A stretch of 43,354 nt of DNA. Source: Pantanalinema sp. (GTDB taxonomy: Bacteria > Cyanobacteriota > Sericytochromatia > S15B-MN24 > UBA4093). The DNA lies in contig DATNQI010000026.1 in assembly GCA_036704125.1 (NCBI GenBank), positions 1 through 43,354 on the forward strand, written 5' to 3'. The translations under genes and the position numbers were made by a program. Numbering within the stretch: the stretch's first letter is position 1; every line of letters starts with the position of its first letter. The notes beneath the pieces are model-generated. The model did no database searches. It was not told where the DNA came from and saw nothing but the letters and a program-made list of their open reading frames with translations. Shown here one piece after another: positions 3,027 through 10,831 of this stretch.

Positions 3027-3521
3027 ATGGTGGAAATGACGCTCTCGGGGGTCATCCTCGAGCCGAAGACCAAGTCCCCCATCGTGGTGCTCAAGGACGA
3101 GGACGAGCAGCGCGCCCTGCTCATCTGGGTGGGCGAGCCCGAGGCCAACGCCATCCTGCTCGCGCACGAGGGGATCAAGACCCCGCGCCCGCTGACCCAC
3201 GACCTCTTCCGCGACGCCCTCGAAGCCCTCGCGGCCCCGATCAAAGAGGTGCGCATCAACGACATGCGCGAGAGCACCTACTTCGCCGAGCTCGAGCTCG
3301 AGGTGGCGGGCGAGACCCGGGTGATCGACGCGCGGCCGAGTGACGCCATCGCCATGGCCCTGCGCTTCGGCGCCCCCATCTTCGTGGCCGAGAAGGTCAT
3401 GGCCGACAGCGCGGTCCCGATCAACCAGAATCGCGACGAGGAGGAAGAGGCCGAGCAGTTCAAGAAGTTCCTCGAGAACGTGAAGCCCAGCGATTTCGGG
3501 AAGTTCGGCGGGCAGTCCTAG
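3027..3521 (+). CDS. Bifunctional nuclease family protein (DUF151)
   Basis: 164 residues. The first 130 are a typical BFN/DUF151 domain: LSGVILEPKTKSPIVVLKDE, LIWVGEPEANAI, PRPLTHDLFRDALEAL, INDMRESTYFAEL and DARPSDAIAMALR followed by APIFVAEKV. The C-terminal 30 residues are an acidic tail (DEEEEAEQ) with a short helix. Plant and archaeal relatives have been reported to have DNase and RNase activity; the cellular role in bacteria is not settled. The start at 3027 has GGAAGGAG at 3012-3019. Its stop TAG shares the palindrome CTAG (3518-3521) with the stop of the convergent cyclodeaminase gene, so the two genes overlap by four bases tail to tail. Confidence 0.88.
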   Translation: MVEMTLSGVILEPKTKSPIVVLKDEDEQRALLIWVGEPEANAILLAHEGIKTPRPLTHDLFRDALEALAAPIKEVRINDMRESTYFAELELEVAGETRVIDARPSDAIAMALRFGAPIFVAEKVMADSAVPINQNRDEEEEAEQFKKFLENVKPSDFGKFGGQS

Positions 3522-4470: not shown

Positions 4471-5145
4471 ATGAACCTCAATTCGAAACAGGCCCTGGCC
4501 CTCGCCGGCGCCCTCTCTCTCATCGCGCTCGCCGGCTGCACCGGCATCCCCGGCTTCGGCAACCCGCAGGTCGCCCCCACCGAAGAACACCCGATGGTCG
4601 CGACCAAGGCTCGCCTGATCTTCAACAAGCTGACCTTCAACACGCGCGCAGGCTCGCCTGGGTTCGGTAACCACGAGGTCTACATCAAGAACCTGACCGA
4701 TGCGGACGTCGACATGACGAACTACGTACTCGCCTATCACCCCGACGGCGCCGTCTCGGACAACGTCGCGACCTCGTCCCTCGTCTTCGCCGCCAACGAC
4801 GCCACCATCAGCGCCGGTGCCACCAAGCGAGTGATCATGGACCTTGGGTACACTCCGCTGGTCGGCCAGGCACGGATCGCCAGCAACATCGGCGTGCAGT
4901 ACAGCCGGGGCGGCGGCCTTGGGCTGTTCGACAGCCGCATCGCCACTGCGTCGGCCAACATGAAGGACTTCGTCCAGTGGGGCCGTACGGACACGCAGTA
5001 CGCGCCGGTCGCGGTGACTGCGGGCCTCTGGAAGACTGGCACGGCGATCGCCACCACGTCGCTTGCGAACGTCGACGGCGTCAACATGACGGTCTTCTCC
5101 GAGGGCGCGACCGGTTCCACCAACTGGAATTTCAGCACCTTCTAG
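4471..5145 (+). CDS. Lipoprotein with a lamin-tail-like domain
   Basis: 224 residues. A lipoprotein signal peptide ends at LAGC (C18). The mature part resembles lamin-tail (LTD) proteins: VYIKNLTDADVDMTNYVL (the usual pattern is a strand followed by a D-L/T-N-x-L turn), TISAGATKRVIM, then DFVQWGR and TAGLWKTG, a pair of motifs common near the end of such domains. LTD proteins are often exported and may bind DNA or carbohydrate; the role here is unknown. The start at 4471 has AAGGAGA at 4454-4460. It is the first of three consecutive lipoprotein genes on this strand, separated from the second by a terminator-like hairpin overlapping its stop codon. Confidence 0.75.
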   Translation: MNLNSKQALALAGALSLIALAGCTGIPGFGNPQVAPTEEHPMVATKARLIFNKLTFNTRAGSPGFGNHEVYIKNLTDADVDMTNYVLAYHPDGAVSDNVATSSLVFAANDATISAGATKRVIMDLGYTPLVGQARIASNIGVQYSRGGGLGLFDSRIATASANMKDFVQWGRTDTQYAPVAVTAGLWKTGTAIATTSLANVDGVNMTVFSEGATGSTNWNFSTF

Positions 5146-5171
5146 CGAGTACGCGCTCGCTACCGTTTTTT
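5143..5171 (+). terminator. Terminator overlapping a stop codon
   Basis: TAGCGAG (5143-5149) and CTCGCTA (5156-5162) form a 7-bp stem that includes the stop codon, and CCGTTTTTTG follows. The stem is short and may be leaky, which would allow read-through into the next lipoprotein gene. Confidence 0.6.
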
Positions 5172-5198
5172 GATTGATTGAATAAGGAGAGTCGCTCG

Positions 5199-5942
5199 AT
5201 GAAATTCCAGATCAAGCTCGGACACATGCTGCCCGTGGCGGCCGGCCTCATGGTCGCCCTCTACGGCTGCGCCCAGCTGCCCTTCAGCACCACCCCCCCC
5301 GCCGACAAGCCCCAGGTCGACGGTCGGATCACCTTCAACAACGCCGAGCCCAGCAACCAGCTCCTGCTCGGCATCAAGCGCTTCGACGGCGCCAACTTCC
5401 AGAAGCTGACCAACACCACGACCACCGACACCAAGGGCAACTACGGCTTTGCTCGCCTGGTGGACGGCAAGTACCAGGTGTTCTACGACGACCAGGGTGA
5501 GGACGTGACCGATCCGACCGTCAACACGGTCGGCGTCTACAACTCCGAGGCCGTCGAGATCGCCTCGGCCAGCACCCCGGCCGCGAGCATCAGCTTCGAC
5601 GTGAGCTGGGACTTCACCCCCACCATCAAGCCCGAGGGCACCTTCCGCGTCGGCGGCGCCGACACCTTCGGCTTCAAGGCGCTGCCCGCCCACTCGGACG
5701 CCGAGTACCAGATCTTGCTCGCCGACAACGACAAGAAGGCCGTCTGGTCCTCCAACTGGGTGAAGACCACCAGCTTCACCTGGAACGGCAAGCGCGGCAC
5801 CGCCGTCGCGGCCCCCAGCACCGCCTACACCGGCGTCGGCCGTCACTTCTACCAGATCAAGTTCCAGAAGCCCGGCACCACCTACGGCAAGGAAGGCTAC
5901 TACGGCCAGACCAAGTGGGTGCCCTTCTTCGTCACCCGCTAG
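5199..5942 (+). CDS. Lipoprotein, tandem paralogue A
   Basis: 247 residues of unknown function. The signal peptide ends at the lipobox ALYGC (C24). Residues about 38-95 look like a carboxypeptidase-regulatory or Cna-B-like beta-sandwich (DGRITFNN, KRFDGANFQKLT, GKYQVFYDD, VNTVGVYNSEA). The C-terminal half has repeated strand motifs ending FYQIKFQKPGTTYG and YYGQTKWVPFF. The start at 5199 is preferred to an ATG 21 bases upstream because AAGGAGA (5184-5190) is correctly spaced. The next gene is a clear paralogue: FDG, QKLT, GKYQ, FYDD, VNTVG, WSS, TSF, WNGK and GQTKWVPF match in order. The two are probably a tandem duplication encoding surface or periplasmic proteins. Confidence 0.78.
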   Translation: MKFQIKLGHMLPVAAGLMVALYGCAQLPFSTTPPADKPQVDGRITFNNAEPSNQLLLGIKRFDGANFQKLTNTTTTDTKGNYGFARLVDGKYQVFYDDQGEDVTDPTVNTVGVYNSEAVEIASASTPAASISFDVSWDFTPTIKPEGTFRVGGADTFGFKALPAHSDAEYQILLADNDKKAVWSSNWVKTTSFTWNGKRGTAVAAPSTAYTGVGRHFYQIKFQKPGTTYGKEGYYGQTKWVPFFVTR

Positions 5943-6820: not shown

Positions 6821-6853
6821 CGCTTGATTCACCGCCCCCCGGTGGGGCGGGGC
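6821..6853. repeat. REP-like G/C palindrome, copy 2
   Basis: CGCTTGATT followed by CCGCCCCCCGGTGGGGCGGGG. The same CGCTTGATT precedes the palindrome of copy 1 at 870-878. The core is in the opposite orientation to copy 1. Confidence 0.7.
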
Positions 6854-6862
6854 TAGGGTGAA

Positions 6863-6934
6863 CGTCTAACGAAACCGTTCCATCAAGCCGCTTACAGCGG
6901 CCACCACAACACATGCCTGGTATTGTTAGATGTG
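6863..6934. repeat. Second palindromic repeat family, copy A
   Basis: It starts CGTCTAACGAAAC and ends TATTGTTAGATGTG, which are imperfect terminal inverted repeats, with a central hairpin GCCGC/GCGGC near 6888-6900. ACATGCCTGGTATTG matches copy B at 12129-12143 with one difference. No reading frame is seen. Confidence 0.65.
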
Positions 6935-6935
6935 A

Positions 6936-7035
6936 GGGGTGGGGGGATATGATCAAGTTCCTCATGCTTTCGGCTGGAGGCTCGGATCGGTTAGATCCCC
7001 CCACCCCCGACCCCGCCCCACCGGGGGGCGGGGAG
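6936..7035. mobile_element. Shortened relative of the DUF559 inverted-repeat unit (MITE-like)
   Basis: The left arm (6936-6962) matches 10427-10453 at 24 of 27 positions. The right arm (6993-7035) is identical over 43 nt to 10791-10833. Only 30 nt separate the arms, so the nuclease gene is absent. This is the structure expected of an internally deleted, non-autonomous copy, but a chance assembly of repeats is not excluded. Confidence 0.6.
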
Positions 7036-10400: not shown

Positions 10401-10454
10401 CCCCGCCCCCCGGTGGGGCGGGGTTAGGGGTGGGGGGATCCAATCAAGTTCCTT
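10401..10454. repeat. Left arm of the DUF559 unit, with a G-quadruplex motif
   Basis: The inverted partner is 10778-10831. Positions 10415-10437 on the plus strand contain four G tracts (GGGG, GGGG, GGGG, GGGGGG) with loops C, TTA and T, a strong quadruplex-forming pattern. The TTA at 10424-10426 is the stop codon of the DUF559 gene read on the minus strand. Confidence 0.8.
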
Positions 10455-10759
10455 ATGGTTTCCACCACCCCGTCGAGATTGCCGAGCACCTCGTTGTTCC
10501 AGAATCTCAGCACGCGAAAGCCCTGATCACCGAGCCACGCGTCACGCTGGCGGTCGTATTCGTTTTCCAGGTGCTGACTGCCATCCACCTCGACGATCAA
10601 GGACACATCGAGGCAGACGAAATCAACGATGTAGTTCCCAAGCGGGACCTGGCGCCTGAACTTGGCGCCGAGACTCTCGAAGCGCAGGGCGCGCCAGCGC
10701 TTGCGCTCAGCGTCGGTGAGATTGTGGCGGAGTTCTTTTGCTCTTGGCGTGAGGTCCAT
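10424..10759 (-). CDS. DUF559 domain endonuclease-like protein
   Basis: 111 residues, one DUF559 domain (PD-(D/E)XK nuclease fold, related to very-short-patch repair endonucleases). Visible: the N-terminal helix LRHNLTDAERKRWRALR, KFRRQVPLGNYIVDFVC with the first acidic residue, LIVEVDGSQH with the E-x-D and Q-H catalytic pattern, and GFRVLRFWNNEVLGN. The start at 10759 has GGAGGT spaced six bases upstream; an ATG at 10819 would translate repeat sequence into a Gly/Arg-rich leader and is unlikely. The last residues (GSPHP) and the stop are supplied by the left repeat arm. Whether it cuts DNA, and whether it moves or maintains its repeats, is unknown. Confidence 0.85.
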   Translation of the reverse strand: MDLTPRAKELRHNLTDAERKRWRALRFESLGAKFRRQVPLGNYIVDFVCLDVSLIVEVDGSQHLENEYDRQRDAWLGDQGFRVLRFWNNEVLGNLDGVVETIRNLIGSPHP

Positions 10760-10777
10760 GTGGCACCTCCGACGAAC

Positions 10778-10831
10778 AAGGAACTTGATGAGATCCCCCC
10801 ACCCCCGACCCCGCCCCACCGGGGGGCGGGG
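10778..10831. repeat. Right arm of the DUF559 unit
   Basis: Inverted partner of 10401-10454. On the minus strand it also has four G tracts with short loops, placed in what would be the 5' leader of the DUF559 message. The 43 nt at 10791-10833 recur exactly at 6993-7035. Confidence 0.8.

Follow-up and report, generated by a model that had tools for sequence, protein, structure and literature searches.

To our knowledge, the origin of the BoxC/PIT/TM repeats has been without an explanation since the 1990s. These intrastrand-triplex repeats are known from E. coli, Synechocystis and H. influenzae and later from more than 260 genomes, with about 100 motifs surveyed in N. gonorrhoeae (PMC4666352). 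Each copy combines a C-rich stem strand, a short loop, a G-rich stem strand, a 3-nt spacer and a mirrored, G-rich third strand; the repeats are multicopy and sometimes stand as inverted pairs with two spacer types. Triplex formation in solution has been demonstrated for the E. coli motif, loci of this kind are unstable in E. coli, and the 2015 survey found no mobility gene or activity near the repeats (PMC4666352). In the RAYT/REPIN system, a single-copy, lineage-distinct gene for a Y1 tyrosine (HUH) transposase is flanked by inverted, GTAG/CGTC-tagged repeats that multiply as short gene-less inverted pairs and also occur as singlets (PMC3116915). Bacterial MITEs and in-frame palindromic insertions (QMITEs) are likewise short inverted-repeat elements that are sometimes read in frame within genes (PMC5896051). 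EDxHD homing endonucleases such as I-Bth0305I have a nuclease fold in common with Vsr and with DUF559, the family considered here, and serve one cognate allele.

The window analyzed in this study is a stretch of 43,354 nucleotides from Pantanalinema sp. It contains a DUF559 gene at 10424–10759 (minus strand; Pfam PF04480, E 2e-38) encoding a predicted Vsr/EDxHD-like PD-(D/E)XK-fold nuclease of 111 amino acids, the only PF04480 gene in the 3.51-Mb genome. The gene stands between two inverted arms of 54 nt each that lie 323 nt apart and are 93% complementary, with four mismatches. The left arm (10401–10454, minus strand) consists of a hairpin (10401–10423), a YYR spacer TTA (10424–10426), a mirror tail GGGGTGGGGGG (10427–10437) and a 17-nt inner sequence ATCCAATCAAGTTCCTT ending in ATCAAGTTCCTT. 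The right arm (10778–10831, plus strand) has the inner sequence AAGGAACTTGATGAGAT (10778–10794), the tail (10795–10805), the spacer CGA (10806–10808; TCG when read from the hairpin) and the hairpin (10809–10831). Both tails are directed toward the gene, and the TTA spacer of the left arm is the TAA stop codon of the gene on the minus strand. The first-pass annotation had described near-identical inverted arms around a single gene, a stop codon supplied by one arm and hairpin-forming arms, and all of this is borne out, the computed folding energies of the arms being -14 and -15 kcal/mol, which is unexceptional against shuffled sequences (z-scores of only -0.6 and -1.7). No target-site duplication was obvious by eye, the unit contains no transposase, and no clean empty allele of the site at kynU came to light, as none of the 17 relatives compared has a close kynU orthologue.

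At DUF559 loci in many phyla the arms are built alike, with a hairpin of C-rich and G-rich strands, then a 3-nt spacer, then a G-rich tail mirroring the stem. The window arms read GGGGCGGGG-TTA/TCG-GGGGTGGGG and, with one position at which T faces C, fit a hairpin whose 5' strand is C-rich and which is followed by a third, G-rich strand mirroring the purine stem. Over 77 loci, A positions of the stem face A or T in the tail in 124 of 129 cases, against a null of 69% (0 of 2000 permutations), and asymmetric stems score 0.92 when mirrored and 0.69 when unmirrored. Intrastrand triplexes of the purine motif follow this rule of a tail mirroring the purine stem, and on these grounds we assign the DUF559 arms, by their sequence, to the known BoxC/PIT/"TM" class. 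The window arms themselves fall outside the E. coli consensus CCCTCNCCC...GGGNGAGGG...GGGNGAGGG, their stems being CCCCGCCCC; many other DUF559 loci match it.

The first-pass annotation had suggested looking for the same arms beside other DUF559 genes. Among 80 DUF559 loci sampled from many phyla, 59 have flanking inverted arms at a score of at least 16, compared with 2 of 240 control positions. Within 250 nt of DUF559 genes, the repeat pattern occurs at 3154 and 3400 per Mb, compared with about 50 per Mb further out in the same loci, a roughly 65-fold difference. Two-arm units are mostly tail-inward, with the tails directed outward in 9 of 52. The subtype of the arms matches the repeats of the same genome weakly over the 80 loci and closely in two genomes, that of the window and that of an unrelated member of the Rhodanobacteraceae (G323), where about 22 of the 28 repeats in a 400-kb sample belong to the subtype of its DUF559 arms; the match is absent in Luteimonas G309. 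In Legionella anisa, the genome of which has only one standard repeat, the DUF559 gene is located inside a different inverted repeat of about 98 nt containing CTCCCTCTCCC (L113, approximately 5001–5303). The open-access literature that we searched yielded no paper linking DUF559 to BoxC/PIT/TM repeats.

Within its own genome, the arm of the window has 62 BLAST matches at 39 sites. Solo copies, which the first-pass annotation had proposed to count, occupy 21 of these sites; the other 18 are clusters, including 12 simple '-+' inverted pairs with tails inward and 4 longer clusters ending in such a pair. The gene-bearing unit of the window is one of the 12 simple pairs. Most gene-less pairs are about 114–135 nt long, a near-constant size, and have in common with the DUF559 unit their ends, hairpin, tail and inner ATCAAGTTCC sequence, as well as the pairing of one T-type with one TCG-type spacer. 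The organization of the arms is thus REPIN/MITE-like, and a search for the Y1/RAYT transposase (PF01797) found none in this genome. Given the 62 matches at 39 sites and the flanking arms at other DUF559 loci (59 of 80 versus 2 of 240), the arrangement of arms and gene in the window is not due to chance.

Some copies are more elaborate. A gene-less copy of the repeat pair within the window (6829–7035, unstranded) carries an insert of about 82 nt in its left-arm tail, as do two further pairs (C37:20040–20240, L004; C59:18479–18685, L023); this insert resembles an integron attC site (GTCTAAC...GTTAGATG). Several pairs (L006, L007, L012, L018, L019 and others) are enclosed by a further imperfect inverted repeat (...gaacgtctgcctg / caggcggacgttcg...), and some elements may consequently be longer than their arms. 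Several truncated DUF559 fragments are also present in genome G002 (C48, C26, C189 and C113) and are possible decayed gene units.

By analogy with RAYT and REPIN, we propose that DUF559 and its cognate triplex-forming palindromic repeats constitute a two-part system, a reading to which we assign a probability of roughly 55%. The first-pass annotation had raised a RAYT/REP-like arrangement as one alternative, and this is the one that gained ground: a single-copy nuclease gene lies within a multicopy palindromic family, accompanied by REPIN-like pairs, and the association recurs across phyla. The two systems differ in that DUF559 is predicted to be a PD-(D/E)XK-fold hydrolase rather than a Y1 tyrosine transposase, and in that its repeats, judging by their sequence, would form triplexes. 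Unlike MITEs and QMITEs, the present elements also have a version that includes a conserved nuclease gene, and neither a TIR transposase nor a target duplication was seen.

Units containing DUF559 are found inside host genes in Gastranaerophilales-type genomes: in frame within priA (six loci examined), in frame at two different points of ispE, and at the end of a radical-SAM-like gene, host identities that we presume from recognition of the translated sequences. The in-frame arms are translated as PSPAGGEG-like peptides. Since units occupy different places in different lineages, insertion has happened. In a set of 21 genomes, three carry the priA insertion and the rest have no DUF559 unit in priA. 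The priA inserts are mostly 62–72% identical (95% for one pair), compared with 85–92% for PriA itself, a sequence divergence which suggests that these insertions are old, with later losses, and which speaks against recent homing. The priA linker before ILLHGVTASGKTEVY, where the units are hosted, is an indel hotspot in the Gastranaerophilales-type genomes, and other species have unrelated low-complexity insertions there.

In genomes with several DUF559 copies, the closest relative sampled for each copy belongs to another species; two apparent exceptions were discounted as one locus counted twice (L189 = L246). DUF559 is thus not a multi-copy transposon, no copy being closest, among those sampled, to another copy of its own genome, and for the same reason the gene behaves like RAYT. 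The multiplying entity is the gene-less arm pair, while the gene stays single-copy and lineage-distinct. The self-contained mobile unit of the first-pass annotation therefore has to be given up, as DUF559 does not multiply within genomes; position 10831 does mark the outer end of the right arm, but the relevant system is genome-wide.

In E. coli K-12, the DUF559 gene is ycjD, with a BoxC/PIT/TM-type repeat directly downstream. Downstream of the gene, two repeats enclose another stretch similar to the 3' end of ycjD (L171, 2741–2895), perhaps a decayed copy. A fabI-ycjD-sapF query (L171, 2663–3330) is covered to at least 80% in one place in 3330 of 5426 E. coli genomes. We considered the block missing from about 2000 genomes as a clean empty site and rejected it: the two genomes examined represent an allele swap, because an RND efflux operon is located between fabI and sapF in both (L242 and L243).

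The AlphaFold model of the window protein (pLDDT 85) matches the structures 3hrl, the EDxHD homing endonuclease I-Bth0305I and Vsr. A sequence profile agrees, with 3hrl, a solved DUF559 structure from N. gonorrhoeae, at 1.5e-34 and I-Bth0305I (3r3p), the nearest solved structure outside DUF559, at 1.3e-5; weak profile matches to unrelated folds were put down to chance. Five residues (Asp46, Glu57, Asp59, His63 and Asp69) do not vary among 23 homologues, from which we infer that DUF559 is likely to be an active nuclease. The protein is a single domain without the DNA-binding extension of the EDxHD type.

Such an enzyme might also serve in repair. As a structure-specific or Vsr-like mismatch-repair nuclease, DUF559 would process or police the triplex repeats without moving them; the gene would lie between repeats for regulation or as their stabilizer, and the repeats would spread by replication slippage or recombination. 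The Vsr-like fold is consistent with this role, as are the Caulobacter DUF559 protein VsrA, which is tied to DNA damage with a proposed role in VSP repair (PMC12907096), and the instability of triplex loci (PMC4666352). A repair role alone, however, explains neither the near-constant-size inverted pairs with the ends and inner sequence of the gene unit nor the in-frame units in unrelated genes, and we regard this main rival as unlikely.

The proximity to I-Bth0305I, and the fact that units in scattered genera occupy identical points of priA and ispE, would also suit a free-standing homing endonuclease that cuts insertion-free alleles and is copied into them by repair. The palindromic arms would then serve for landing or repair, and the repeats across the genome would be abortive copies. 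DUF559 nevertheless differs from EDxHD homing endonucleases in having neither an intron or intein nor a long DNA-binding region, and it is tied to dispersed repeats instead of a single allele. The divergence of the priA inserts resembles old vertical inheritance with losses, and homing would not multiply gene-less pairs. This explanation is accordingly improbable.

We compared the occurrence of DUF559 and of the repeats among genomes. In 292 Cyanobacteriota, repeats are present in 95 of the 125 genomes with a strong DUF559 gene (E at most 1e-20) and in 26 of the 167 without (odds ratio 17; p 3e-26). At least five copies are found in 69 of 125 and 15 of 167, respectively, and because the difference holds at this threshold, the arms of DUF559 itself do not explain it. 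Permutation within families reached the observed value in none of 5000 trials. The 293 Gammaproteobacteria genomes, counted uncorrected for relatedness, behave similarly, with repeats in 49 of 59 compared with 45 of 234 (odds ratio 21) and at least five copies in 40 of 59 compared with 22 of 234. Elsewhere, 35 of 36 genomes with DUF559 carry repeats, and reversed-pattern controls are near zero. The presence of DUF559 therefore predicts which genomes carry the repeats, an association that extends across bacteria. Exceptions occur in both directions, with at least five repeats in some genomes lacking DUF559 (the 15 of 167 and 22 of 234 above) and few repeats in some that have it. They are partly due to blindness of the pattern, which misses stems with G (2 pattern matches in the window genome versus 62 by BLAST), and possibly also to false-negative DUF559 calls. 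The E. coli control of the DUF559 search gave no match although K-12 has ycjD; many E. coli are without ycjD.

These counts bear on whether the gene is a passenger, trapped between repeats which some other enzyme, for instance a RAYT or an IS transposase, mobilizes. The phylum does have many Y1 transposases, and these show a weak association with the repeats (z 2.2 given DUF559), but the effect of DUF559 remains when family and Y1 are controlled (z 6.5), the window genome has no Y1, and DUF559 recurs between such repeats in unrelated phyla; we hold a passenger role to be less probable still than homing. The weakest explanation, chance or artefact in the form of G/C-rich terminator-like palindromes around a small gene, could appeal to the abundance of hairpins, the ease with which C/G-rich sequence matches and the unexceptional folding of single arms, but is refuted by the reversed-pattern, control-position (2 of 240) and mirror-covariation (0 of 2000) controls and is very improbable.

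We return to the two-part system, in which DUF559 is a good candidate for the agent that spreads the repeats or maintains them. That it cuts and moves the repeats is inferred from the analogy with RAYT. The nuclease would recognize the hairpin or third-strand fold of a repeat in DNA that has become single-stranded, most likely at replication forks, and would cut beside the repeat by ordinary metal-dependent hydrolysis. In repairing the break, the cell would copy the repeat pair to, or join it at, another site; short pairs without the gene would thus spread in trans, while the gene copy remains in place as the single-copy partner. PD-(D/E)XK-fold enzymes form no covalent DNA intermediate, unlike a tyrosine transposase, and movement would therefore be by break and repair, in a homing-like manner, rather than by strand transfer. 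More tentatively, and with somewhat less confidence than in the two-part system itself, we suggest that DUF559 proteins may be the dedicated enzymes of pan-bacterial intrastrand-triplex repeats, hydrolytic non-transposase nucleases that would recognize the triplex or hairpin and disperse gene-less pairs by break and repair, a mode undescribed before.

What the window contains is thus better described as a single-copy resident nuclease accompanied by a population of dispersed repeats. Hundreds of genomes are rich in BoxC/PIT/TM repeats, which have been linked to genome instability, with no gene previously connected to their spread; the partner gene proposed here is a domain of unknown function found across bacteria, including YcjD of E. 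coli. Linking the two provides a testable role for DUF559 and another for the repeats, and points to a REPIN-like system run by a Vsr/homing-type nuclease in place of a tyrosine transposase.
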